Assembly (NCBI RefSeq): GCF_019320115.1
Contig: NC_089581.1
Span: 71,345,155 to 71,409,154 of the forward strand
Reading direction: 5' to 3'
From: Miscanthus floridulus
Lineage: Eukaryota; Streptophyta; Magnoliopsida; Poales; Poaceae
DNA: 64,000 nucleotides
Below are positions 10,300-63,342 of this stretch, in pieces (position 1 is the first letter of the stretch; every line of letters begins with the position of its first letter). The position numbers and the translations under genes are program-made. The notes under the pieces are model-generated. The model saw nothing but the letters and a program-made list of their open reading frames with translations. It searched no databases and was not told the origin of the DNA.

Positions 10300-10659
10300 T
10301 GTGGCAGAACCTCCTAAGAAATCGGGCCCACGTGCACCTATCATTGTCTTAACAGACCTCGGATAGCGTTCACAAGTTCCCAACAACTCAATAGGTCTAT
10401 CGGGTGTCCTCAGGAAACCCGAATCATCCACAATTCTCTTTTCAAACAGGATCCCAATCACAGACATTGCAGATTACAACAGTTTATTCAAATATATACA
10501 TCAGAGTAAAAGATAGCGGAAGTCTTAAGATAACATAGTTTACAAACCAGTTGTTTTCAAACTTACAATACCATAAGTGTCATACAACCATAGTAGCGGG
10601 ATAATATTACATTAAATTTATTTATCATACAAACTAGTGCCTTGTCCAAAGGCCATTCA

Positions 10660-10733
10660 TCACTCCTCATCGTCATTGACTTCAAACACAGACATGTAGC
10701 AGGGACCAAAACAAGCCTGCGCATGCAACTCAC
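10660..10733 (-). other. candidate LTR-encoded exon 3 in LTR D
   Basis: This follows the block ACTCAGGGTTTGTTAACCC and acceptor CTTGTTGCAG. In the phase set by exon 2 it reads GELHAQACFGPCYMSVF then EVNDDEE and stops at TGA (10660-10662). H has a matching end (CYMTVVQIDDAE, stop) and G ends ...TDDEG and stop. The intron between exons 2 and 3 would be about 956 bp with GC...AG ends. A poly(A)-signal-like AAATAAATTT lies about 45 bp further on. Confidence 0.55.
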
Positions 10734-11689
10734 CTGCAACAAGGGTTAACAAACCCTGAGTACAAAAGTACTCAACAAGACTAACTCGACATAAAGGGGT
10801 GTAAGACTTTTAGAGATGCAGGGGTTGGGGCAAGGTAAGGATGTAGCAAGATTCAAAAGTTCTTTGCTAAAAGCTTACTATTCTTATCCTATTTTCAAGT
10901 TTTACCCCTAAGTCCTTTTAGTTCATTATCTCAACTAAATGTACATTTCCCATATTCCAATCCTTCTCATTCCATTCTTTTCTCATATTTTAGTAATTCA
11001 CCAGTCTTGCATTGCTTCTGTAATGAATCGAGTCTCCATATCCGCGGAGCACCGGCAATTCGAATTGATTCAAGTCCCAGCTGGGGATTCCTTATCACAT
11101 GACATATGTAGAACTTAATCTTGCATACATCAACCTCGCTACCGGATCCTCCTATACTAAGCCATCTCCACGCCACCCAAGAGCACAACACACCTCAAAT
11201 CCGGCCACATTCCAGCCACGAGGGTACACGCTACTCCCACCATCTCTCCACTCCCAATGCATGGGCATTCGTCTTAGTATCGGATTAGCTAAAGTAGGCT
11301 TACCGGAGTATGTGACCAGTACTACAAAGTGTCTCATTTAGAAGATCCACAATGAGTGGCCTTTAAGCAACATAGTCGGCAACATTACCCAATATTCAAG
11401 ATAAGTCACCCGACTAGTCTCTAGTTCATTCAACCTTCTTTCTTTCTTTGGCTAGTATGCCATCTTTGATTATATCAAAACTTTTATTTTGAAAGCCTAT
11501 CATAAAGCATACTAAGCATTCTACGCCTTTGTAAATGAAAACATCTTCAAGGATGGTAAACAATTAACAAGGTAGGCAATGCATCAAGTAGGTAACATTT
11601 GAATTAATCAACTTAATGCAATAAGTAACATATGTGATAAACTTTTCAAAGTAACAAGGTAAGGGTTTAATGCATAAACTGGGGCTTGC

Positions 11690-11797
11690 CTTCGTTGACG
11701 ATCTCAGGTTCCGGATCAGTACCACAATTATCGAATCCCGTGACAACCGGGGATTCTTCCAGAACTTGCTCAACTAGAATCGTTTCACTCTCGGGTT
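11690..11797 (-). other. candidate LTR-encoded exon 2 in LTR D
   Basis: Minus-strand acceptor CATGTAG, then 108 bp with no stop, then the GC donor GAAG|GCAAGC. The peptide contains VEQVLEES, GFDNCGT and PEPEIVNE. LTR H encodes a near copy (VVEEV, GFDNCGT, PEPDFSDN). In the GFDNCGT block the two DNAs differ at four bases and all four changes are silent. Both ends are phase 1, so it can splice in frame to the segment at 10660-10733. No known family is recognised. Confidence 0.6.
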
Positions 11798-12707
11798 CTA
11801 CATGAAATGATAACATATGCTTTAACATGATGATAATATAAACATGATGCTGTCATGGTACATGAAATATAACAACACTTCGAATACAACCGTTTTTTCA
11901 CGGTACAGTTGCAAGCCAACAAAACCAACTTGCAATTCTACAGTCAAGAACCACACATGTGACTTGACCAAACTGATCTTGAAACCCTACTAATCACAAA
12001 ACATGATCAAAACAAGATTAAACACTAATCAAACATTTAGGGTTTGCTTTTATTTATTTTTGAATTAATTTGGAAATAAGCCCAAAAATGAACTTGTTCT
12101 AAATGACCTCAAAATTTTATGTAAGCTTCCTCATGACAAATTAGTGTACCAAAACAAATTTCATAATTTTTGGAATTATACAGTGGCCTACAAAAATCAT
12201 GGAAATTGCATTTATCAATTAATGGACTGAATATTTGAACATTAAATTTTTTTTCAAATTTCAAGTTTCATATTTTTCAACCATACTAGAATATGTACAG
12301 AAGCTACACAAAATTTTTCAGAATTTTTGGAGTTATGATTATTTTCCTACAAATTCCCAAAGTTTTAGCACTATTCAAAATTCAGAAAATATCAAAACCT
12401 TACTGTTCTTCTCTTTCTTTCTCACTGACAACCCGACCCCGCTGTCAGTGACACAGACAAGGCATACGTCGGCGCTGCCATCATCGGTCGGCCAAAACAC
12501 GCTGGCGGTGACGCTCCCACGAGGCAGACCGCACCTACATGATCTACAACGTGCAGTGAATCTAACCTAGCCCTCAAAACGGCAGCAGGCACACCGGAGG
12601 AAGCTCCACGCCGGCCATGGCAGCGTGGGCACGATGGTGCACGACGTAACCCCAGCAACGAAGCAGTAGAGACTAACACGAAGCGAGCATCACGCTCAGG
12701 AGCTCAC

Positions 12708-12975
12708 CACGATCATGCCGGTGTGCTTGGTGAAGACGGAGACGGACTGGAACGTCCTGGCCACGGCGAGGTCGATGGTGGCGGAGCTCTGGCCGGTCTC
12801 GGGGAAGAACGCGTTGCGCCGGGCGATTCCGGCCAACACAAGCGACGTGAGCAAGCCAAAGAGGAGCGCAAGGCCGAGGCGATCGTGTTGGCATAGCTGG
12901 GCACGACGGACGTGGTTCGACGGTGGCTATGGCGAGCGGCGGAGCTGACTGGCGGCGGAGCAGAGCAGAGGGGAA
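12708..12975 (-). other. candidate exon 1 of LTR D, with a host-like coding scrap
   Basis: Downstream of the TATA box one minus-strand frame encodes a hydrophobic stretch (LGLALLFGLLTSLVLAGIA), then a polar part ending at HTGMIV. Over its last 23 codons every third base is G or C, which is typical of grass genes and unlike the surrounding DNA. The frame runs directly into GTGAGCTCCTGAG, a consensus 5' splice site at 12707; H has the same GTGAGCTCCTGAG after its GC-rich block. I read this as captured host exon sequence or an LTR leader exon. The protein family is not recognised, no in-frame ATG is seen, and its phase (0) does not match exon 2 (phase 1). Confidence 0.5.
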
Positions 12976-13001
12976 AACGGAGAGCGACGGCGGCGGTGCT
13001 C

Positions 13002-13011
13002 CTATTTATAG
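13002..13011 (-). promoter_or_regulatory. TATA box in LTR D
   Basis: The minus strand reads CTATAAATAG within GGCTATAAATAGGAGC, a near-ideal plant TATA box, followed by a pyrimidine- and GC-rich leader. It lies about 810 bp from the LTR start, so it would mark the U3/R border. Transcription would start near 12975. Confidence 0.7.
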
Positions 13012-13821
13012 CCGGGGAGAACGCGCCCGGCGTCAACAGCTCACGCACGAGCTCGCCACGGAGCTTGCTGCATGTCAACGCGCGAGGAAGCGGTGCAAAT
13101 CGATCAGCGGCGACAACTGCGTGACGCCGGCGGCAAGCAGAGAGGTGGCGCTCGGCTGATTTTGATTTTTGAAGTATTTACAGAATTGCCACTACGTTAA
13201 TTTTGTAAATTACTCTCAATTTTTCTAAAGAAGTTGAAAATCTCCAAAAATGAAAGGTGCTCAACTTTTCAAACTCTACAACTTTGCTTCAAGGAACATT
13301 TTCAAATTCTGCCTCCATTTTGAAATTTGAATTTGGGGTGCATTTGAGTATTTGAATCATTTCAAAATTACTCCAAATTTTATATGTAAACTTTAAAAAC
13401 TTTGAATACCAAAGTTGATCCTTATAAAATAATCTTCAACTTTGCTTTTTGCCTCAACCCCAAATTTCAAATGGATTTTGAATTAGTCAAAAGGGGCAAA
13501 AAGGACTTTTACGATTTGAATTTGAATTAAAATTTGATTTGTTTACCTTTTTACTTTAACTTTGATTTTTGACCAGTAACATGGCCCATTAGGGTTATTT
13601 GAGTCAAATGACACATGGCCTCACATGATCACATGAAATTTGACCCTGGTGGTCATGATCTTTATTTAGGGGTTTGAATCACATCACACATAAAATAACA
13701 ACTTATGAAATAAATCTTATTTTGTGTATGCATTCAAAATTTTCTACTTTATGAATGCTTTGCAATGCATATGATGACATGTCACGTTTTAGTGCTAGGT
13801 CAAAACACCAGAGGTGTTACA

Positions 13822-33310: not shown

Positions 33311-34789
33311 TACCTTCGCTTGCTTTTAGTTTGGCTACACTTGTAGTTAGTTCTTGATTGGTACATGCTTGGTGTAACTGAATTTAAGTAAACTAATATG
33401 CCATGCTTGATGTACTTTCTATCTCTATGTTTGGCTTGATGTGAATAGCTTGCTCTCTAAGAACTCATGTCATGTGGTGTAGCCTTGTGCTTGTCTTGAA
33501 TGTTTTTATGTGATGCATCTTTTATTACCATTCCCCACATTCATGCACTTGCATCGTGCATCTCAATTAGGTACGCTAGATGAACCACGTGCCAAATGGG
33601 ATGTTGGAGCCAAACCTGAGGAAGGTGCATGGTGAACCTATCCCAAAGATGGAAGGACTTAGCGAGTGTCGTCTAACAAACACTGACTTAGTTTGGGATC
33701 CCAGGCAAGCCCCGGAGCATTCTAAGTCTCCCATGTTTTTACAAATATCTTGAGTATCTTTTATTGTTGATGATGCGTTAAGTATAGGAATTGGTTGGAA
33801 CCAATTGTTGCATTATATCCTTATCTTGTCCAGATAAAATCCTATGAATCCTAATTATGTTCAGGAACGGGTTAAATGCTTAGCCATGCTTAGTGCGGTA
33901 GAAGTCAGGTGATTTCCTGTCACCTGTGAGCTTTAGGATGAGGTGGGTCATGGTTGGCTATATTTGCTATCGTGGAAAAGAATACTGTTAATAATGAATT
34001 GAGACCGGGTGGAGTCTTTGTGTAGGGTTGGACATAGTGACTCCGTCTGTGTCGTTTAAGGACCGATACGATGTACGTCCTCATGTCATGTTGAACGCAG
34101 CCTAACACTTAGCTGGCCGGATAAGTCGTTCCGACCACAAAGCCTAGTAGCTTGACTCAGGTCGGGAACCGGGGGGTTATAGTGCACATTTTGGAGGCAG
34201 TAAGGATGTGCTTGGGGACATTGGCGTGAGTCCAAGGGGTCAGGTGCTTAAAATTCCTACACTTCCTGGCAGAGTGTCGCCCTTGAGAATGCGGCGCTGT
34301 CCGGACTTGTGACTCCTGAGTTGTACCAAAGGTGACTTGATTGTGACCCCAACGGGGGAAGCAAGGTTTGTGTTAAGAATACCCCTCCAACTGGATTGGA
34401 ATCGATTCGAGTCGTCGTCTCTCCCAGATAGTGAGAACTTGACTAAGCAGCGGCAACGTAGATTCACTAAATTTAAAGATATGGTTAAGTGATGATGATG
34501 ATGATAATGAGCCATGAAATACCTAATATGGTTATTATTGTTTGCAACTTAATCAAGTGATTGATTAGTACAGGTGCTAATATAGATGGTAGGTAATGGG
34601 TAAAAGTCACTGCTAGTACAGGTGAATAATGCTAATGATTACTTAAGCTTTTATGCAAAAAGGTTGTCAGCTCAGCTCCACCAAATAAAGCCTTGCATAA
34701 TCCTTGGTGTCACTTTATTTTTTGGTTTATGACAGGTAAGTCTAGCTGAGTACATTCTCGTACTCAGGGTTTATTCCCTTTTGTTGCAG

Positions 34790-34851
34790 AAGACGTGCTA
34801 TATAACGGCTACTGCAAGTATTGCTTGCACCCAACGGATGATGAGGGCTAG
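34790..34851 (+). other. candidate LTR-encoded exon 3 in LTR G
   Basis: It follows TTTTGTTGCAG. In the same phase as in D it stays open for 20 codons and ends in TDDEG at TAG (34849-34851), like the EVNDDEE and stop of D. TGCTATATAACG early in the segment matches TGCTACATG of D and H. Exon 2 of this copy is unclear: the GC donor at 33704 is conserved but the frame before it has a stop. Confidence 0.45.
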
Positions 34852-40600: not shown

Positions 40601-40804
40601 ACATTCATGCATATGCAATGCAATACTTGAAAGTAAATCTAGTTGCTTGTCAAGTTTGATCCAAGGTTAAGCTTCTTCACACGCTTTACGACAGTTATCT
40701 TAACCATGTTAGACAAGCCCTAAGTGCATTACCATAAAGTAACATGTTGTATATTATAATGAAATGCAAAGGACAACACAAACTCAATTTTTAGTGAAGT
40801 TACT
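40601..40804 (-). other. pol end and start of spacer of element E
   Basis: After element I and one copy of its target site are removed, LDFSN continues into this segment and pol ends at once. The following DNA is AT-rich non-coding. GTTAC (40800-40804) is the target site of element I. Confidence 0.65.
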
Positions 40805-42602
40805 GTCGACATAGAATTTTCGCTTCCGTGCCAAGGACACACGCAGCAAGCCGGAAGGGTCCGCTCGATGGAGCAGATCCACCTGACTTTAGCGCAAGGA
40901 TGGTCGATCCTGCGCAATCCTCCTGAGACGTGCCAGTCAATTTGACCCTACAATTGATAAGGAGAGAAAGCTTATCAGTAATTAAGGGCGGAACATGCCG
41001 GTGTTGCCAGACAGTCCTGAATGTGTGGCTCTAAGAGCCGATATGAGAGGAAATCGACTAAATAGCCGATCCCAGCATGTTCACAAGAATGAATCGATTA
41101 AAGCTCATGGGGTTGTATAAGAAGGATCGGTTATCATTCAGGATAAATGTTATTTAAGCAAATATTAATCAATGGTAATAAGATATCAATGATGATTGGT
41201 TTATACTGAACCAATGATTACAAGTAACCTGAACTCCTTTTATTTAAAGAAACAACTCAACACCTCTTAACCATTTAATAATGGTAAATCTAATGAACAT
41301 GTTAGATCTCATCTATCGCCATGACCTAGTGGGGCATGAGGCAGAATCATGTAGGCCATAGAAACAACAATAGACTCGACAACCCTAACTCATTACTAAT
41401 ATCAGTGGGGCATGAGGCAGAATCATGCAGGCCATAATACCATAACAAGATCATGGGGCTAACGCATCTTTCAACTTATCTCTACTTCAATGATCTCATA
41501 ATGTGAACTGTTCATGAAAGCATTCAATATCGACTAAACAGCCGGTTTAGGCATAGCGCACAGTTAAGGTCATGCCTTCTCAGGAATAGGTCTACTAACT
41601 AACGATCCCCACTCCATGGTGCCAATAGTGGGGTGAGATGAAGAATCCCACAGGCCATGATGACGGGCCATGGAACAGTTTTCATTAACTAATAGATCTA
41701 CTCAAGATCAGACATGCCTTAACCGCACGCTATGCACGATTAAGATTGACGCAAAACAGCCAATAAAAAACATAACTCATCGCTTAAGATGTAGATTAGA
41801 TCAGTTTTAGATTAGCAAACGATGAGTTAAACAAGATATAAGGACAATCTAGATCAATCTCAATCGGGCAGAGTGATATTGCTATAATTAGATAAACAAT
41901 GAAAGCAATAAGCAATATCAGTAACTTAATGAATCTACCAACGACTGCCATTCTAAGGTAGAGCCGATAACTTGACCTTGATCTAATTCAAGCAGTGGGG
42001 TGTGAGGCAGAATCACACAGGTCATACTTGAATTAGACAAGAATCGATAACTAGCCTATACTAGAGTCGCAGTGGGGGTCGACCAGATCGATGCAGCCAT
42101 ATGAACAGAGGTATAAACCATGACAGTACTTACAAACAAGTAGTGGAGGTCGACTAGATCGATGCAGCCATACTCGCTGAAGAACTCAGCTGAGATCTAC
42201 TCTACTCCTCCTAAGGGGTGGCCGGAGCCAAAAAAAGTAATTGACTTTGTAGTTTGATTGATTGTTGTTCTACAATAGCCGGGGTTTGGTATTTATACCC
42301 AGAGTCTAAACATGAATCCTACTCAAGCACGATTTGTTACAACCTTCGGCATAAAATGAAAATATTCCTAATTTAAGATAACTATGGACTCTAATCTTTC
42401 CCTTTTTGTAGAGTCCAGCATGTTTCGTCCGAGCGCCAATCATAGTCCTTGTCGTTATCTGCTGGCGCTATTTGAAGAAAGATGATTCTAGTGCTGCATC
42501 CAAATCAGCTGGTTTCGATCCGCACGCAATTATTTCCTTGCTGACATGATTCTGGGAGTTCTCGAGCTCTTGAGATCCTCCTTCCAAATTCTAGTGTAAA
42601 CA
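40805..42602 (-). repeat. 3' LTR of element I
   Basis: It begins TGTCGACATAGAATTTTCGC and ends ...CTAGTGTAAACA on the plus strand. It is nearly identical to 50261-52060, with scattered substitutions and small indels. It contains six copies of a hairpin motif flanked by GTGGGG and CAGGCCAT (near 41329, 41404, 41627, 41996, 42078, 42150). Confidence 0.92.
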
Positions 42603-50260: not shown

Positions 50261-52060
50261 TGTCGACATAGAATTTTCGCCTCCGTGCCGAGGACACACG
50301 CAGCAAGCCAGAAGGGTCCGCTCGATGGAGCAGATCCATCTGGCTTCAGCGCAAGGGTGGTCGATCCTACGCAATCCTCCTGAGACATGCCAGTCAATTT
50401 GACCCTGCAATTGACAAGGAGAGAAAGCTTATCAGTAATTAAGGGCGGAACGTGCCGGTGTTGCCAGATAGTCCCGAATGTGTGGCTCTCAGAGGCGATA
50501 TGAGAGGGAATCGACTAAATAGCCGATCCCAGCATGTTCACAAGAATGAATCTATTAAAGCTCATGGGTTGTATAAGAAGGATCGGTTATCATTTAGGAT
50601 AAATGTTATTTAAGCAAATATTAATCAATGGCAATAAGATATCAATGATGATTGGTTTATACTGAGCCAATGATTACAAGTAACTGAACTCCTTTTATTT
50701 AAAGAAACAACTCAACACCTCTTAACCATTTAATAAAGGTAAATCTAATGAACATGTTAGATCTCATCTATCGCCATGACCAGTGGGGCATGAGGCAGAA
50801 TCATGCAGGCCATAGAAACAACAATAGACTCGATGACCCTAACTCATTACTAATATCAGTGGGGCATGAGGCAGAATCATGCAGGCCAGTAATACCATAA
50901 CAATATCATGGGGCTAATGCATCTTTTAACTTATCTCTACTTCAATGATCTCATAATGTGAACTATTCATGAAAGCATTCGATATCGGCTAAACAGCCGA
51001 TTCAGGCATAGCGCACAGTTAAGGTCATGCCTTCTCAGGAATAGGTCTACTAACTAACGATCCCCACTCCATGGTGCCAATAGTGGGGTGAGAGGCAGAA
51101 TCCCATAGGCCAGTGATGACGGGCCATGGAACGTTTTCATTAACTAATAGATCTACTCAAGATCAGGACATGCCTTAACCGCACGCTATGCACGATTAAG
51201 ATTGACGCAAAATAGCCGATAAAAAACATAACTCATCGCTTAAGATGTAGATTAGATCAGTTTTAGATTAGCAAACGATGAGTTAAACAAGATATAAGGC
51301 CGATCCAGATCAATCTCAATCGGGCAGAGTGATATTGCTATAATTAAATAAACAATGAAAGCAATAAGCAATATCGGTAACTTAATGAATCTACCAAAGA
51401 CTGCCATACTAAGGTAGAGCCGATAACTTGACCTTGATCTAATTCAAGCAGTGGGGTGTGAGGTAGAATCACACAGGCCATACTTGAATTAGACAAGAAT
51501 CGATAACTAGCCTATACCAGAGTCGCAGTGGGGGTCGACTGGATCGATGCAGCCATACGAACAGAGGTATAAACCATGATAGGTACTTACAGACAAGCAG
51601 TGGAGGTCGACCGGATCGATGCAGCCGTACTTGCTGAAGAACTCGCTGAGATCTACTCTACTCCTACTCCTAAGGGGTGGCCAGGGCCAAAAAAAGTAAT
51701 TGACTTTGTACTTGATTGATTGTTGTTCTACAATAGCCGGGGTTTGTTATTTATACCCGGAGTCTAAACATGAATCCTACTCAACCACGATTTGTTACAA
51801 CCTTCGACATAAAATGAAAATATTCCTAATTTAAGATAACTTGGACTCTAATCTTTCCCTTTTTGTAGAGTCCAGCATGTTTCATCCCAGTGCCAATCAT
51901 AGCCTCTGTCGTTATCTGCTGGCGCTATTTGAAGAAAGCCGATTCTAGTGCTGCATCCGAATCAGCTGGTTCCGATCCACACACAATCGATTTCTTGCAG
52001 ACATGATTTTTGGAGTTCTCGAGCTGTTGAGATCCTCCCTCCAAATTCTAGGTGTAAATA
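50261..52060 (-). repeat. 5' LTR of element I
   Basis: It is the partner of 40805-42602 and ends with GGTGTAAATA (expected ...TGTAAACA) before target site GTTAC. The six hairpin motifs recur near 50782, 50860, 51080, 51452, 51530 and 51602. On the minus strand, sequence just past it (TAGCACCCTCAGG) may be a decayed TGGCGCC-type primer site. Confidence 0.92.
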
Positions 52061-54333: not shown

Positions 54334-56385
54334 TGTAACACCTCTGGTGTTTTAAACCCTAAAAGATGTCCATGTCATCATATGCATTGCACATCATTTC
54401 GAGTTAGTGAAAACTTTAATATGCACTTCACTAAAACAAGTTTATTTTATGATTATATGTGCTGACTTGTATGGATGAATCAAGTTCAAAACTTTAGCAT
54501 TGAATTGGAATTTCCTGAAAACCCTAATTTCCAGCATTTAATATTACCCTAGAAAACCTAATTCAAAATCTAAGCACATTTTGGGGTTGAGCCTAAAAGG
54601 AAAAGTGTAGAGTTTGTCAAGGTGTACAAACTTGGTTTTTGGAGTTTTCAAAGTTGTTATATAAAATTTGAAGTAATTTGAAAAGGCAATAAGTTCTTAA
54701 AGTGTCCCCTTTTGATTTCAAACTTGCATTTTCGAATCTAGATAGAATTTGGGTATGGTTATTAAAGCAAAGTTGCAGAACTTTGAATTTGGAACAACTT
54801 TTATTTTTGGAGATTTTTGAGTTTCCATACAAATTTGAGAGTAATTTAAGAAATTAAGCGAGTGGAAATTCGGTAAATACTTGGAACAGTGGAAGTAGGC
54901 AGACTCTCACCGCCCACCATGCTTCCACCGGCTTCTACGCATGCCCGCAGGTGCCACCTCTGGCTTTGACGTGTCCGCGTCATCGTGGCGTGTCAAGCGC
55001 ACCTTCACCGTCGCTCTTCGCTCGCCGATAAGACTGGGAGTGCTCTCCCATCGTCCTTTCTTCTCCTTTGCTTTTCCCGTCACCACCTCCAGCTCCAACA
55101 AGCTCGCGCCGTCACCGTAGCGCCTTCCTAGTCGTAGCAAAGCTAGTCACAGCTCTGCCTGCTCCTTGCGAACCCAACTGACCAATCCTTGAAGCCTGAC
55201 TCTGCCGAGAAAACGCTACGCATCGTCCTTCTTCCTCGCGGCCGGCAGCATCGCCGTCGAGCTTGCGTCACCATGGCTGGCAAGCTCTGGTAGCTTTCTC
55301 GATCTCTCATGCTTGGTTTCATCTTTACCATGCTACGCTGGTGCTCTGTGGCCCTTTAATTGATCCTTTCCTCCACTACAGATGCTGAAACGCCATCGTC
55401 GACGTCAGCCTACGCCGCCGTGTTTGTTGTGATCGACGACAAGCCTCTCCGTTGCTCCTCCGGTCCATCTTTCAGCTCGAGCGTGTTTGGGGTGAGCTCC
55501 TGAGTCTTCCCAAGCCTTGTGTTTAACCGCTATCGACCTCCCTTCGCCGGCGTGCCACAGCCACGCCATCGTGGCCGCCATGGCTGGCGTCGTGCTCGAA
55601 CCAAGCCGTAATTGGTCTAGCTAGTGCCACCAATCGACGCACTGTGATGTGGGGAACGTGGTAGTACCTTGGCCGTCGGTGAGAAATCGTCGGTCAGCGA
55701 GTTTTGCCGCCATGGTCAGCGTGGGAGAACGGTGCTGACATGTGGGACCCGATGTCAGTGGTCGTGGGTTTGAAAATGGATTTTTCTATTTTTGTAGAAT
55801 TGAATGAATAGTGTTGTGATTTCTTATTTTTGTGTAGAATTAAATAGAGCTCCAAAAATTATGAAAATTTTTGTGTGACCTCTTTGAGATGTAAACTATT
55901 TAGGAAAAATATTAAATGTTACTTTTAGTACATTTTGAATGTAATAAAAAATTGCTCAATTTAATTAATAAATGGGTTTCCATGATTTTTCTAGGCTTAA
56001 ATAAGTATCCAAAAATTATGAAAATCGTTTTGCCACTTAGTTATCATATGATGAGTCTTCACAAAAATTTGGAGCTCATTTGGAAGAAGTTTATTTATTT
56101 CATAATTTTGAATTAAATAATTAATTCATAAAAGCAAATAGTAAACCTTAATGACTTAGGTTTTGTTTGAATTTTGGATTGAGTGATGACCTTGGGTCAT
56201 TAGTATAAAATGATCCTTGGTACTTAAAGTAAGTGTTTGAGTTTGTGAAAAAGTTTAGTTAGTTGTTGGTTTGCAACTGTACCGCGAAGGAAAGTTGTAT
56301 TCAAGTTTTAACTTTTGCATCCATCGTCAAGCATCATGTTTTATATCTCGCATCATATTAAACATGGCATTGTTACTACGTGTAG

Positions 56386-56502
56386 TGAACGGAAGCGAGA
56401 ACGTGGTAGTCAATCAAGTTGTTGAGGAAGTTAATCCGTCTGTTGAGGTCGGATTTGATAACTGTGGAACATCCCCGGAACCTGACTTTTCCGACAACCA
56501 AG
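56386..56502 (+). other. candidate LTR-encoded exon 2 in element H
   Basis: Acceptor-like TACGTGTAG, 117 bp open, then GC donor CAAG|GCAAGC. It encodes VVEEVNPSVEVGFDNCGT and PEPDFSDN, matching D with many silent DNA differences. The donor and acceptor phases (1 and 1) are the same as in D. Upstream the frame stays open to ATG 56365, so an unspliced small ORF is also possible. Confidence 0.6.
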
Positions 56503-57514
56503 GCAAGCCCCGGATGCATTTAAACCTACCTTGTGTTTTACAATTTTATATCGCTTTTGCTTTTCTAATACTGCATTAAGTGATTAGGAGTTGAGTGGAA
56601 ACCTAATTGGTGCATTACCAACCTTGTTTTTCCATATCAACCTTGTTACCCTGTTTCAATCCGAGAATGCTTAATTATGCTTAGCCATGCTTAGAATGAT
56701 AAAAGTCGAGGTGATTACCGGTCACCTGCGAGATATAAATGGTTTTCTTGGATACGATTGGTTATTTATGCTATCATGAGGTATAATCTTGTGGAGTAAT
56801 AAATCTAGATCGGGCAGACTCGGTGTATGAGAGCCACAGGACATGGATGTCTTGTGAGCGGGTTCTTTCCGCCTGTGTTGATTAAGAACCGTCCGTTGTT
56901 GAATTGCATGAGGTGAGACTTTGTAGTACTAGCCACATACTCCGGTAAGCCTTAACTTAGGCTATTCTATTACGAGAATGGCTACTCACGCACTAGGAGT
57001 GGAGAGATGGTGAGGGTTAGCAGTGTACCCACGTGGCAATGGGCTGGATTGGTGGAGTACTGTATTCTCGGGTGGCGTGGACCCATTCTTGTTTTAGAGG
57101 ATCTGAGGGTAGGTTGGTATATGTAGGTCAGGGACCTGCATATGTCATGTGGTTGGGAATCCCCAAGCTGGGTTATAATCGGTTCGAATCGTCGTTGCTC
57201 CTCGGTTATGGAGACTCAACTCACTGTTCATCATCGTAGTTAATAAATGAAACATTGAGGAGGTTTGAGAAAGGGTTTGATATGAAGATCATGGTCTCAT
57301 TACGGATCATGGTAGGTTCATATATGATCTTGATAAGGGTTATATGTTGAAAGAAAGAATCTTTTAAAAGAGCTTTTATGCAAAAGAACCTTGTCATTTG
57401 CTAAAGCCTTACCTTGAATCCCTGAGCCTGCATTCTTGAGTCTTATTAGTTTTTATTTTGGTTAAGTCTTGTTAAGTACTTTTGTACTCAGGGTTCAGTT
57501 AACCCTTGTTGCAG

Positions 57515-57587
57515 GTGAGCCTCATGGGCAGGTCTAGTCTTGGACCTGTGCTACATGACGGTTGTTCAAATCGATGATGCCGAGTAA
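57515..57587 (+). other. candidate LTR-encoded exon 3 in element H
   Basis: It follows GTACTCAGGGTTCAG and AACCCTTGTTGCAG. It begins GEPHGQ in the phase of exon 2, and after a small frameshift reads CYMTVVQIDDAE and TAA (57585-57587), matching the end of D. The intron from 56503 would be 1012 bp, GC...AG. Confidence 0.5.
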
Positions 57588-57953
57588 ATGTGTGGCCCTT
57601 AGGCAGGGCACTTCCTTTGTGTGTTATATTTTATGTTACTAATGTCCACTCCACTACTATGGTTTGTAATAATAATCATACTCAGTTTGTAAGGTTTGAA
57701 ATAACTATTTTATAAACTAAGTTATTGTAAGACTTCCGCTATTTTACTCTGATGTATATTAATGATAAATTGTTGTAATACTACAATGACTCTATAATGG
57801 GATCCTGCTCGGAAAATCGTGGATGATTCGGGGTTCTCCGAGGACACCCGATAGTCTTCTTAAGTTACCGAGAACATATGCATAGTCGTCATAGGTCATT
57901 GGATAGTGACAGGTGCATATGGGCCCTATAATTTAGGAGGTTCTACCACAGAG

Positions 57954-57966
57954 TGGTATCAGAGCA
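57954..57966 (+). other. primer-binding site of element H
   Basis: TGGTATCAGAGCA, three bases after the LTR, is the perfect complement of the initiator tRNA-Met 3' end expected in Tekay elements. The leader to 58340 is non-coding. Confidence 0.9.
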
Positions 57967-58340: not shown

Positions 58341-60298
58341 ATGGCTCGTACCAAGGTAACGCCCCATAAGTCCGTTGGACCCAAAGGAGTTCCTCGTCAC
58401 TAGCTTGCCCCTAGAAGTGATGGTGCTAGCAGTAGTAGCTTTAGGCCTGATCCCCAGGCTGAGGTACAGAGGCTTTCAGCAGAGTTAGCACAGGCTACTA
58501 GAGATAGGGCCTTGGATGCCATCCAGGTGGGCAAGTTACAGGATCAATTGAGGCATGTCGCACCACCGCTCATAAGAACTGTGAGCGTATGTTAGTTTGT
58601 ATGGTGGAAGGAAGAAATGAAGCTTGGCATAGAGAAGATGTAGCTAGAGCCCGAGTTCATGAGTTAGAGTTTTATGTAGAAGACTTAGAAGAATATTATA
58701 CCAACCTGCATGAAGAAGTCCATAGGTTGAACAACCTTCTGAATCCAAATCATGAGCCTCAAGCTGATGCAATGGACCCAGGTGTCGTCATAGCAGATGA
58801 TGATGAGCCTAAAGAGGAGGAAGAAGAAGATCCAGAAGTAGTGATGGTCAATGAAAGTGATAATGAAGGCAGAAATGTTTCTGGAATGGATACCGATCAC
58901 GAGGTTTGATGTGATCGAGGAGAAGAGTAGAGTTGTAATATAGTGAGTTCTAGTCTAGTTGGGTAGTCTTGCTTAAGTGTAGACTTGTGTATAAATAAGT
59001 AAACCCAATGTAATGTGTTTGTAGTAAGCTCTTTTAATATTTCAATAAATGCTTGTGAGTAAAGTTTGGCTTGTCATGAATAGATGCCTCGTACTCATGC
59101 CTCGGATGTTCCTAGGTTCTTCGCAAGACGAGGGTGGTGATTCCTGATCCACCACCTAGTTCCACCAACTTTGGCTGATGCTATCGCAGCACTGGTCCAT
59201 GTGACCAGTAGATAATGCTCAGTTTGCTTTGGGAGTTAGCTCAAAGCAATCAGAATATGATGCAAGGGAATCAGTGGTTGTAATCATTCAAGGCAGGAAG
59301 CTACGTATGTTGACTTCATGGATACACGACCACCAGTATTTACCAAGGCTGACGAACCACTTGAAGCTGATGATTGGCTTCATACCATAGAGCAGAAGTT
59401 TGACCTCATTCCATGCACTGAGTTCTAGAAGCCTATTTTTGCTACCCAACAGCTTAGAGGTGTAGCAGGTGCTTGGTGGGCGAACCTTGTGGCCATGCAA
59501 CCAGCCGGTACTCGGTTAACTTGGGCTGAGTTCCATACTACTTTCCGTGCCCATTATATTCCAGAGGGAGTTATGGCCATGAAGCTGGATGAGTTTCTTG
59601 CTTTGAAGCAAGGTGATCAAACAATCATGCAGTATGTGGGCAAGTTCAATCACCTTTCATAGTATGCACAGGAGCATGTTAACACGGATGCCAAGAAGAA
59701 GTGGTTCATGCATGGTCTTAGTACCAAACTTCAGACCATGATGACTACATGCACAAATGTCATGTATCATGAGGCAGTTAACATTGCTATTGCTTCAGAG
59801 GAGAAATATCGGCAGCATAAGGAAATTAAGAAGAAAAAGAGTGTGCCATCTAGGTCTTACGGTGGCAATCAAAAGAGATAGAAGATAATTTATCATCCGG
59901 TGAATCACAACTGTCCTCCTTATCGTCCACCATAGTTCCAAGCCGGGCAGCGACCAAATGTCTTTCCTGCTATAACTTACCCAAACTCACAACAGACAAA
60001 TGTTCCTGGTGTTCGTGCTCCAACACCCCAAGGCCACAATTACCCATGTTTCAATTATGGGAAGTCAGGTCATTTCTCTAGGGAATGTCCGTAACCTAAG
60101 CAGTACAATCCAAATTTTTAGAAAGCTCCTAGAAATCAACAACAGGGTCAAGCTCAGGACAAGAACAACAACCAAAATGCTCAGAAGGGCAAAAATGAAA
60201 AGAAGACGGGGAGGGTTTTCTATACTCAAGCTGGGGAGATTCTAGAAGGGGAACCTATGATGCTGGGTATGTTTCCTATCAGCCGATCATCCTGCTAG
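58341..60298 (+). pseudogene. gag of element H (broken)
   Basis: It starts MARTKVTPHKSVGPKG at ATG 58341. TAG at 58401 stands where Gln fits. An acidic segment at 58589-58909 is in another frame. The core lies near 59310-59830: EPLEADDWLHTIEQKF, GAWWANLVA, TRLTWAEFHTTFRAHYIPEG, TIMQYVGKFNHLS. The zinc knuckle (about 60049-60090) reads CFNYGKSGHFSREC, so the second Cys is Tyr, as in element A. It ends in a Gln/Asn/Lys-rich tail. There are at least six TAG or TGA stops. Confidence 0.8.
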
Positions 60299-60300
60299 TT

Positions 60301-63300
60301 ATGCTTTTTTATTCTGGTGCATCTCATACATTCATCAATAGAACCTTTGTCATAAAGCATGAAATTCCAATTGGGGAAACAAAGGAGAATTTTTATATAA
60401 AATCACCCAGGGGACATCTGTGTACTAAGGAAATGGTGTACCAGGTACCCATAAACCTGGGTGGGCACATTTTTCCCACTACCATGATTATTCTAAAAGA
60501 TCAGGATATAGACGTGATCTTGGGAATGAATTGGATGTATCAGCATAAGGCTATTGTAGATACGTTGAATAGGACAATAAGGGTGAGTTTGCCAGATAGT
60601 AATTCTAAGCTTCTTATCCAACTTCCAATCTTAAAGAGAATAGTGGAAAAAGTTTGTGCCACTTTAGTCAAGGAGATTAGAGATATCCCTATAGTTTGTG
60701 AATTCTCAGATGTTTTTCCTGAAGATTTACCCAGTCTACCACCTGATAGGGATGTCCAGTTTGGAATAGATCTAAAACCTAGAACAGCTCCAATCTCTCG
60801 GAGAGCTTATAGGATGCCTCCCAAGGAATTAGCTGAGTTGAAGACTCAATTGCAAGAGTTGATTGATAAAGGTTTTATCCAACCTAGTTCATCACCTTAG
60901 GGGATGTCCAGCAATTTTGTGAAAAAGAAAGATGAGACCCTTGAGATTAGTGTTGACTATCGACCATTGAATGAAGTGACAATTAAAAATAAATATCCCT
61001 TACCTTGGATAGATTTACTTTTTGATCAACTGACTGGAGCTAAGGTTTTCTCCAAGATTGATTTGAGGTCAGGATATCATCAAATCAAAATTAAGCCTGA
61101 AGATATTCCCAAAATGACATTTACCACCAGATATGGACTTATATGAGTACCTTGGTAATGTCTTTTGGTTTGACAAATGCCCCAGCTCAGTTCATGTATC
61201 TGATGAATTCAGTGTTCATGCCTGAGCTAGACAAGTTTGTAGTAGTCTTTATTGATGACATCTTAGTATATTCCAAGAATAAGAAAGAACATGTTGAACA
61301 TCTCAGAGTTGTTCTGACATGCCTAAGAGAACATCAGTTATATGCCAAGTTCAGTAAGTGTGACTTCTGGTTAAAGGAAGTACAGTTCTTAGGGCATGTC
61401 TTGTCAGCTGAAGGAGTTGTAGTAGATCCAAGCAAAGTTAAGGATATACTAGATTGGAAACCACCAACCACTGTTCATCAGGTTCAGAGTTTTCTAGGAA
61501 TGGCGGGTTATTACCGCCGTTTCATTCCAGATTTCTCTAGAATATCCAAGTCCATCACTGGATTGTTGAAAAACCAAGCCAAGTTTGTCTGGTCACCTGA
61601 CTGTGAAGAAGCTTTCCAGACTTTGAAAAGATTACTAACCACTGCACCAATGTTAGCACAACCAGACATCGAGAAGCCGTTCGACATTTATTGTGATGCT
61701 TCTGGTATTGGTATTGGGTGTGTATTGATGCAAGAAGGCCGAGTCATCGCCTATGCTTCCAGACAACTTAAGCGACATGAAGAACATTATCCAACCCATG
61801 ATTTGGAGTTAGAAGCAGTTATCCATGCTTTGAAGATTTGATGGCATTACCTGCTTGGTAATACTTGTCATATTTATATAGATTACAAGAGTCTAAAGTA
61901 TATCTTTACTCAATCAGAATTGAACATGCGGCAAAGAAGATGGTTGGAATTGATTAAAGATTATGACTTGGAGGTGCATTACCACCCTGGTAAAGCAAAT
62001 GTGGTTGCAGATGCACTCAGTCGTAAGAGCCATTGCAATTGTCTAACCATGAAGACAATGGATCTGACTTTATGTCAGGAGATGGAGGAGTTGAAAATAG
62101 AGATAATTCAACAAGGTAGTTTGACCAATATAATTGTTGAATCAACTATCCGAGACCAAATTATTGCTGCCTAGAAAGAAAACAAGGGTATAGCCCATAT
62201 CAAAGAAAGAGTTAGGAAGGGAAAAGCAACATGCTTCAGAATAGATGATGCAGGTGTGTTATGGTTCAAGAATCGCCTTGTGGTACCCAAGGTTCCTGAG
62301 TTGCGACAGTCAATTCTTGAAGAGGCACATACCACCTAGGTTCTCTATTCATCCAGGAAGTAATAAGATGTACCATGACTTGAAACAGAGATTTTGGTGG
62401 ACCAAAATGAAGATAGAGATTGCTCAATATATAGCCAAGTGTGATACTTGTCAAAAAGTAAAAGCTATACATTTGAAGTCCGCTAGAGAGTTACAGCCAT
62501 TGCCTATTCCAGCTTGGAAGTGGGAGGATATTAGTATGGACTTTATCGTCGGTCTACCCAAGACATCAAAAGGTTTTGACTCAATATGGGTTATTGTAGA
62601 TCGACTGACTAAGTCAGCAAATTTTCTTCCAGTCAAGAGTATATATCCCACTATCCAATATGCCAAGATGTATTTAGCATGAATCGTGAGCTTACATGGT
62701 GTACCAAAGACCATTGTGTCGGATAGAGGTACACAGTTTATTTCCAACTTTTGGAAACAATTGCATGCTTCGATGAGTACAAAACTTCTGTATAGTACCG
62801 CTTATCATCCACAGACTGATGGTCAGACTGAAAGAGTAAATCAAATACTTGAAGATATGTTAAGGTGTTGTGTCCTTAACTATTCCAATAAGTGGGATGA
62901 ATGCCTGTCTTTGGTTGAGTTCTCATACAACAATAGTTATCAAGAGAGCATTAAGATGGCTCCATTTGAAGCACTCTATGGTCATAGATGTAGAACATCG
63001 CTAAATTGGTCTAAACCTGGGGAACGATGGTTCTTTGGAGTTGACCTTGTGAAAGAAACAGAAGAGAAGGTTAGGCAAATACAAAATAATTTGAAGATAG
63101 CTCAGTCCCGACAAAAGAGTTATGCAGATAAACGACGTCGACCATTGGTGTTTAACAAGGGAGATTATGTATATCTGAAGGTATCACCAATGAAGGGAGT
63201 CAACCATTTCGGTGTTAACGGCAAGTTGGCACCTTGTTATATTGGACCATTTCAAATATTAGAGAGGTGTGGAAAGGTGGCATATCGCTTGAAGTTACCA

Positions 63301-63342
63301 GAACATCTCTTAGTTGTACACGATGTGTTCCATGTCTCCTAG
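60301..63342 (+). pseudogene. pol of element H: protease, RT, RNase H, integrase (broken)
   Basis: The protease begins LFYSGASHTFINRTF, where the catalytic Asp of D-S-G-A is Tyr. [43 protein letters not shown] (61248-61274, intact). RNase [17 protein letters not shown] and [18 protein letters not shown], then [16 protein letters not shown]. Integrase: H...H near 62350, CDTCQ (62441), SMDFIVGLPK, VSDRGTQFISNF and DGQTERVNQ (D-D-E). Damage: TAG 60898, small insertions near 61140-61155, TGA 61840, TAG 62172, frameshift near 62290, TGA 62680. Over 90% of the protein text is still readable. Confidence 0.9.

Follow-up and report, generated by a model that had tools for sequence, protein, structure and literature searches.

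Long Terminal Repeats of Grass Retrotransposons May Carry a Small Spliced Gene for an Acidic Protein

Long terminal repeats (LTRs) are usually regarded as noncoding control regions. A 64,000-nucleotide stretch of the Miscanthus floridulus genome (here called the window) raises the question of whether they can also hold a gene of their own, because an earlier note on this DNA had proposed that five LTRs in it (B, D, F, G, and H) share one order of parts and encode a small spliced protein. Judging from sequence comparison, we think it probable, though some way short of certain, that LTRs of at least three grass families (D, H, and G) carry a small spliced gene whose acidic protein product is under selection.

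The internal region behind LTR H contains the domains RVP_2, RVT_1, RT_RNaseH_2, and SH3_Tf2-1 (60199 to 63339), and with its protease, reverse transcriptase, and RNase H domains the host of LTR H is a Ty3/gypsy retrotransposon. Its lineage may be Tekay/Del chromovirus, Tekay being the label given in the earlier note, with which the LTR length and the Met-type primer binding site (PBS) agree. LTR D and LTR H are about 70% identical in aligned blocks, and no second (partner) LTR of D was seen within the 64-kb window. B, F, and G are LTR regions more distant from D and H; GGCAAGCCCC is common to all three, and GTACTCAGGGTT...TTGCAG is common to B and G and absent from F. A further long LTR pair, with repeat blocks 90 to 99% alike, lies at 40804 to 42594 and 50261 to 52051. 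Copies were searched in one genome (2.68 Gb in 2420 contigs, of which C1 to C19 are chromosome-sized), and the features of the window are collected in Table 1.

Table 1. Observed and predicted features of the LTRs in the window (a slash marks the predicted splice position)
Feature	Position	Strand	Remarks
LTR D	10305..13821	-	TGTAACACC...CCACA
Predicted TATA box TATAAATAG (LTR transcript promoter)	13002..13010	-	exact in 36/45 D rows
In-frame ATG before TGTAG (D)	11814..11816	-	no stop between, 29/29 DNA-ranked D rows
TGTAG, acceptor-like end of putative first intron (D)	11798..11802	-	29/29 DNA-ranked D rows
D coding exon 1 (putative)	11690..11797	-	108 nt, phase 1-1, PESETILVEQVLEESPVVTGFDNCGTDPEPEIVNE
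D predicted GC-AG intron	10734..11689	-	donor AG/GCAAGCC in 29/29 DNA-ranked rows; acceptor AG in 48/49
D coding exon 2 (putative)	10660..10733	-	GELHAQACFGPCYMSVFEVNDDEE, TGA; same-phase homologue of H exon 2
AATAAA	10617..10622	-	38 nt past D exon 2 stop
LTR H	54334..57950	+	5′ LTR of Ty3/gypsy element; Met-type PBS TGGTATCAGAGC at 57954
In-frame ATG before TGTAG (H)	56364..56366	+	no stop between, 37/40 H rows
H coding exon 1 (putative)	56386..56502	+	117 nt, phase 1-1, NGSENVVVNQVVEEVNPSVEVGFDNCGTSPEPDFSDNQ
H predicted GC-AG intron	56503..57514	+	donor AGGC in 36/40 rows
H exon 2 (putative)	57515..57587	+	frameshifted in window copy; sister copies GEPHGQVCLGPCCMTVVQIDDAE, TAA
G donor motif G/GCAAGC	33704..33710	+	upstream exon 1 unrelated in window copy
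G exon 2 (putative)	34790..34851	+	EDVLYNGYCKYCLHPTDDEG, TAG
B exon-1-like acidic segment	5580..5717	-	one in-frame TAG in window copy

Exon 1 of D and exon 1 of H share, in the same phase, the peptide V.QV.EE...GFDNCGT.PEP. The sequences bear out what had been read from them earlier: both segments encode the core GFDNCGT and PEP, all four DNA differences within GFDNCGT are silent, and both segments are bounded by TGTAG and AG/GCAAGC with phase 1 at both ends. The reading frame is conserved among copies: none of the 29 DNA-ranked D rows has a stop in exon 1, and an in-frame stop occurs in only 1 of 40 H rows (intron-ranked copies, including that of the window). In a metagenome protein, P0045, a D-type exon 1 runs straight into an H-type exon 1 within a single frame, a pattern resembling recombination or splicing together of two families.

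About 1 kb past exon 1, TTGTTGCAG ends at 10734 in D and at 57514 in H, and the exon 2 peptides that follow are homologous between the two families in the phase predicted by splicing. The D copy of the window reads in phase after TTGTTGCAG up to NDDEE-TGA; the commonest D reading is GESHAQACFGPCCMSVFEVNDDEE followed by the stop (16 of 49 distinct rows), with a stop at the same CAG codon in 7. In the window copy of H, a 2-nt insertion leads to TAG after 7 codons. The phase-1 acidic end with a stop that had been described for both LTRs is therefore present in D and in sister copies of H (...QIDDAE and stop) but not in the H copy of the window, where DDAE lies in another frame. Among six other aligned H loci, L002, L003, L004, and L007 read GE.HGQVCLGPCCM..VQIDD.E and stop, L003 having lost the acceptor AG, and in L005 and L006 a stop replaces Q; L008 is without homology at exon 2. 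The expected stop was reached in 12 of 19 further H rows (from 20 regions fetched, L171 being absent from the tabulated rows), with a stop at one CAG codon in 4 and a stop at a later Q codon, a shift near the end, and a lost stop codon in 1 row each. Both exons and the splice sites are intact in 38 of 50 distinct D loci, which were picked for high similarity.

The other LTRs follow the same plan to different degrees, and the claim of one order in five LTRs goes too far: F (28221) has the donor motif, which an N gap follows, but lacks exon 1, the exon 1 region of G in the window is unrelated, and B contains a stop. In G, 10 other copies were fetched of 39 listed, and all 10 have an acidic exon 1 ending in ...EEELPECPDHRPSSFLK or a close variant, open in phase 1 in 7 (stops in L210, L212, and L215); the upstream end differs in L212, and the donor is altered in L218. 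In 4 of these copies, exon 2 encodes DDLLYQGFCKYCLHPAGDED or something very similar and reaches the expected stop; of the remainder, 2 have altered ends, 3 stop after DDLLY or DDLFY, and 1 is nonhomologous. Layout and exon phase in G are the same as in D and H, and the peptide is different. The window copy of G (33590 to 33704) is unrelated in its exon 1 region to the acidic exon of its family, which suggests that LTR cassettes may be swapped. In B, the window copy has a stop in exon 1, as do 16 of 21 rows, and the layout is kept. Across the B region (window 5717 to 4592, minus strand; copies L150 to L169 and L190 to L209), the acidic exon 1 persists with mostly broken frames, and the in-phase protein usually stops three codons past the splice (GTA or GST and then the stop); B is perhaps a lineage losing the gene.

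Copies picked by similarity to the exon or its protein are a biased sample, so we searched with the adjoining intron and fetched the neighboring exon, scoring in each search the best 40 of thousands of candidates; the exon was fetched for all 39 other hits in H and for 20 and 10 of the 39 other hits in B and G, respectively. Values from protein-ranked copies (omega = 0.27 in H and 0.19 in D), which are biased towards silent differences, were set aside as a test of selection. With mutation rates taken from the flanks, omega for H exon 1 was 0.42 (0.26 to 0.66) in 40 rows. After four shifted, chimeric, or gapped rows (L125, L135, L145, and L149) had been dropped, the remaining 36 gave 0.44 (0.26 to 0.69) in frame, while the wrong frames came to 1.14 and 1.25, and with the exon's own rates they gave 0.56 (0.34 to 0.86) versus 1.27 and 1.45; across analyses, the in-frame value ranged from 0.41 to 0.56 and the wrong frames went down to 1.09. 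The antisense frames gave 1.13, 0.62, and 1.61. Nucleotide diversity (π) at codon positions 1, 2, and 3 was.110,.080, and.170 (permutation P value = 0.005, or 0.014 with stratification by base and CpG), all P values in this analysis being optimistic because the copies have a common ancestry. Nineteen disjoint nearest pairs of H copies held 96 nonsynonymous versus 48 synonymous differences (omega = 0.66, P value = 0.013), and disjoint far pairs gave 0.38, a difference expected if selection acts on active lineages and copies decay afterwards.

G exon 1 showed the same pattern in 9 of 10 rows (L212 dropped), with π of.077,.062, and.139 (permutation P value = 0.006; stratified, 0.002). In B (21 rows), π was.184,.147, and.215 (P value = 0.044; stratified, 0.114) and omega was 0.87 (0.68 to 1.14). 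The 29 DNA-ranked D rows, copies too young for such a comparison, had π of.034,.009, and.021 and an omega of 0.91 (CI, 0.44 to 1.73). Codon models in IQ-TREE, based on too few codons to be decisive, gave an omega of 0.38 under MG (kappa = 1) and a nonsignificant 0.77 under GY with free kappa (1.3 lnL units from omega = 1 at kappa = 9.3). The earlier note had held that a dN/dS near 1, or equal conservation of all codon positions, would speak against a protein; in exon 1, the in-frame value for H (0.44) is not near 1, and the third position is the most variable in H and G. Constraint is accordingly seen in exon 1 of H and G, and not in the young D rows, in B, in exon 2 within H, or under the GY model. 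The signal appears to exceed chance in exon 1 of H and G and at the second acceptor, among copies that share ancestry.

Comparison between families covered both exons. Between D and H, differences per codon position in exon 1 were.35,.25, and.58 (37 open H rows against 57 open D rows, of which half are protein-ranked), with a dN/dS of 0.18 (10 by 15 of the open rows). The corresponding values for exon 2 were.32,.17, and.40, with a dN/dS of 0.20, in a comparison of those rows whose frame is intact (12 of the 27 in H and 37 of the 49 in D). Within H alone, exon 2 gave no significant signal (omega = 0.86; CI, 0.55 to 1.55), and a wrong frame gave 0.82.

The splice sites are also constrained. TGTAG is present in 38 of 40 H, 17 of 21 B, and all 29 DNA-ranked D rows, and the donor in B is AGGCAA in 19 of 21 rows and AGGT in one more. 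The second acceptor, in 106 rows from four families, is CAG in 79, TAG in 20, something else in 7 (two of them nonhomologous), and CAA in none, so that YAG stands in 99 of 106; in B, the AG is kept in 16 of 19. An AG/GCAAG donor and a YAG acceptor, as in GC-AG spliceosomal introns, thus recur across copies. CAG is a symmetric CHG site, and control stretches showed 90 C>T versus 95 G>A changes among 897 site-copies, a total made up unevenly of 12 versus 38 in the H and D sets and 78 versus 57 in the B and H 5′ sets. Against this, 20 changes of CAG to TAG versus 0 to CAA has a P value of about 5e-7 if copies are taken as independent, which they are not. The homology of exon 2 between D and H, together with the constraint on the acceptor AG, favors splicing. 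With the constraint on exon 1, these observations support the reading of a small spliced protein encoded in the LTR.

The strongest competitor, which we nonetheless consider unlikely, is a small unspliced open reading frame (ORF) that begins at an in-frame ATG before TGTAG and runs on through the "donor" to a stop soon afterwards (the D type ending in ...NEGKPRFMH), exon 2 being unrelated or regulatory. Such an ATG stands a few codons ahead of TGTAG in 37 of 40 H rows and all 29 DNA-ranked D rows, inspection by eye adds B and 7 of 10 G copies, and 296 of 303 related proteins retrieved, among the matches listed, match the form that reads through past the donor. The exon 2 motif is absent from these 303 proteins among the matches listed (120 each of 222, 1329, and 1061). 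In retrieved proteins, conservation of exon 1 (0.906) is no better than before it (0.918) or after it (0.942). However, the proteins from ENA/JGI are probably predictions made from DNA and so may be unable to reveal splicing. Intronless genomic copies were absent from the best 40 of 2068 and the best 40 of 2326 candidates, a negative result that is uninformative on splicing. Several features argue against the unspliced ORF. The stretch from ATG to AG in H has no protein constraint (omega = 1.03; CI, 0.40 to 2.95), and TGTAG and AGGCAAG are nearly fixed. The coding signal stops at the donor, past which third-position diversity is low and omega is 8.7 in H, and this rules out a conserved ORF reading beyond it. 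The exon 2 peptides of D and H are homologous in just the phase that splicing would give, and a one-base difference just before the acceptor leaves the two families no common unspliced frame into exon 2; and the second acceptor tolerates C-to-T change yet keeps its AG. The intron just past the donor (window 56514 to 56561 and H copies) is strongly conserved in a noncoding-like manner, with π of.060,.016, and.016 in the read-through frame, and is perhaps a regulatory element.

A second alternative, somewhat less likely still, is a long leader intron whose conserved splice sites regulate the RNA of the element, the ORFs, left over from an ancestral protein or arisen by chance, being no longer selected. 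It would account for B, which with a decayed frame keeps its donor and acceptor in the proportions given above, and it fits both the weak constraint on exon 2 within H and the nonsignificant GY model; it is at odds with the third-position excess in H and G, the conservation of the exon 2 peptide between D and H, and the near absence of stops from H exon 1. Chance combined with transposon decay, by which conserved LTR blocks happen to be open and to have third positions rich in mutable bases, is very improbable: the segments are short, transitions dominate the exon (ts/tv of 3.7 versus 1.4 to 1.7 in the flanks), and one of six noncoding control frames also gave a P value of 0.010 (0.053 stratified), but the permutation stratified by base and CpG still gives 0.014 (H) and 0.002 (G), the wrong frames of the same exon at the same rates have omega above 1, and layout and phase agree between families.

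Returning to the spliced LTR gene, we infer that it is transcribed, spliced, translated, and functional, as follows. A Pol II transcript would start at the LTR TATA box (13010 in D), with the GC-rich 5′ part noncoding, and would hold coding exon 1 (about 36 to 47 codons), an intron of about 1 kb bounded by a GC donor and a YAG acceptor, and, with its stop, coding exon 2 (about 20 to 24 codons), followed in D by the poly(A) signal. Translation would start either at the ATG before TGTAG with intron 1 retained, for which the D ATG is a possible start codon, or at one supplied by an upstream exon. The idea that the GC-rich 5′ part holds a first coding exon was rejected for both families: in H, the ten lowest 20-codon windows had omega of 0.54 to 0.71 and 9 of the 10 contained stops, and in D, omega was 0.94 to 1.02 in three frames. 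This part of LTR D contains a 65-codon frame (window 12893 to 12696, minus strand; LALLFGLLTSLVLAGIARRNAFFPETGQSSATIDLAVARTFQ...) that looks like a captured piece of a host gene but has an omega of 1.02, is open in 27 of 45 rows, and has no Pfam or PDB match. In the H LTR, the corresponding GC-rich stretch (54990 to 55800; homologous loci L230 to L249) is hypervariable, with π of 0.15 to 0.41 per 30 bp versus 0.06 to 0.09 in the adjoining AT-rich part, possibly through CpG decay.

Full-length unspliced RNA with a long R would be the replicating form, and only a spliced fraction would yield protein; because the replicating RNA is unspliced, the intron would survive in new LTRs. GC donors are generally weaker than GT donors, which fits such partial splicing. 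The product would be a strongly acidic protein (pI about 4) of about 60 to 70 residues, with at least two cysteines in the exon 2 part. For D, a protein of 66 residues is predicted, 17 of them acidic and none basic (pI 4.05), and the predicted G protein has 19 acidic and 3 basic residues; NEGESHAQACFGPCCM is an example of a predicted junction-spanning peptide. D and H peptides had no Pfam match up to an E value of 1, and the predicted D protein had no PDB match up to an E value of 10. From its acidity, small size, and analogy, we would guess, with low certainty, that the protein is a trans-acting accessory factor aiding expression of its own element, for example through binding to histones, the Gag nucleocapsid, or other basic partners.

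We further speculate, as a doubtful extension, that very long LTRs (at least 3 kb) may be self-contained genes, with a promoter, two coding exons, a regulated GC-AG intron, and a poly(A) signal, and that each solo LTR may be a source of an acidic trans-acting protein that aids its family (e.g., against silencing), a cargo that would explain the length of these LTRs. If true, this would give a reason for unusually long LTRs and make solo LTRs genes beyond their role as promoters. It would also add a class of proteins hidden by repeat masking, with thousands of candidate places per family search in one genome.

Accessory genes of retroelements are already known, and a spliced gene encoded in the LTR is possibly new for plants; among the matches listed from open-licence literature (titles and the beginnings of abstracts), none describes a plant LTR that encodes a spliced protein. 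In a review of plant additional ORFs (aORFs) (PMC7264820), these frames are likewise accessory and of a role described there as unknown, and they are found in the internal region, for the most part between pol and the 3′ LTR, in sense or antisense. In grasses, Retrosat2, RIRE3, and RIRE8 resemble the elements studied here in having LTRs longer than 3 kb, a predicted R of about 2 kb, and an extra ORF, but this ORF0 precedes the gag-pol ORF and is treated separately from the LTR (PMC3485330); Retrosat-2 is placed under Tekay in PMC6317226. The D and H exon coordinates, in contrast to the internal placement of aORFs and ORF0, fall inside the LTR. BARE1, also a plant LTR retrotransposon, offers a parallel for the proposed transcript, since it has a spliced, translated RNA pool separate from an unspliced, replicated one; according to that report, its splicing removes 104 nt and favors Gag only, with no new protein and none encoded in the LTR (PMC3735527). 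A further likeness is to mouse mammary tumor virus (MMTV) sag, termed an "LTR-encoded ERV protein" (PMC11998498), which is likewise a retroelement accessory protein lying inside an LTR and kept open. The predicted coding exons of H have a sag-like placement: they sit within the LTR, ahead of the PBS, and on the same strand as the pol domains. Sag, however, belongs to a mouse betaretrovirus and is a type II membrane protein, whereas the LTR gene described here would encode a small acidic protein and have its intron wholly within the LTR.
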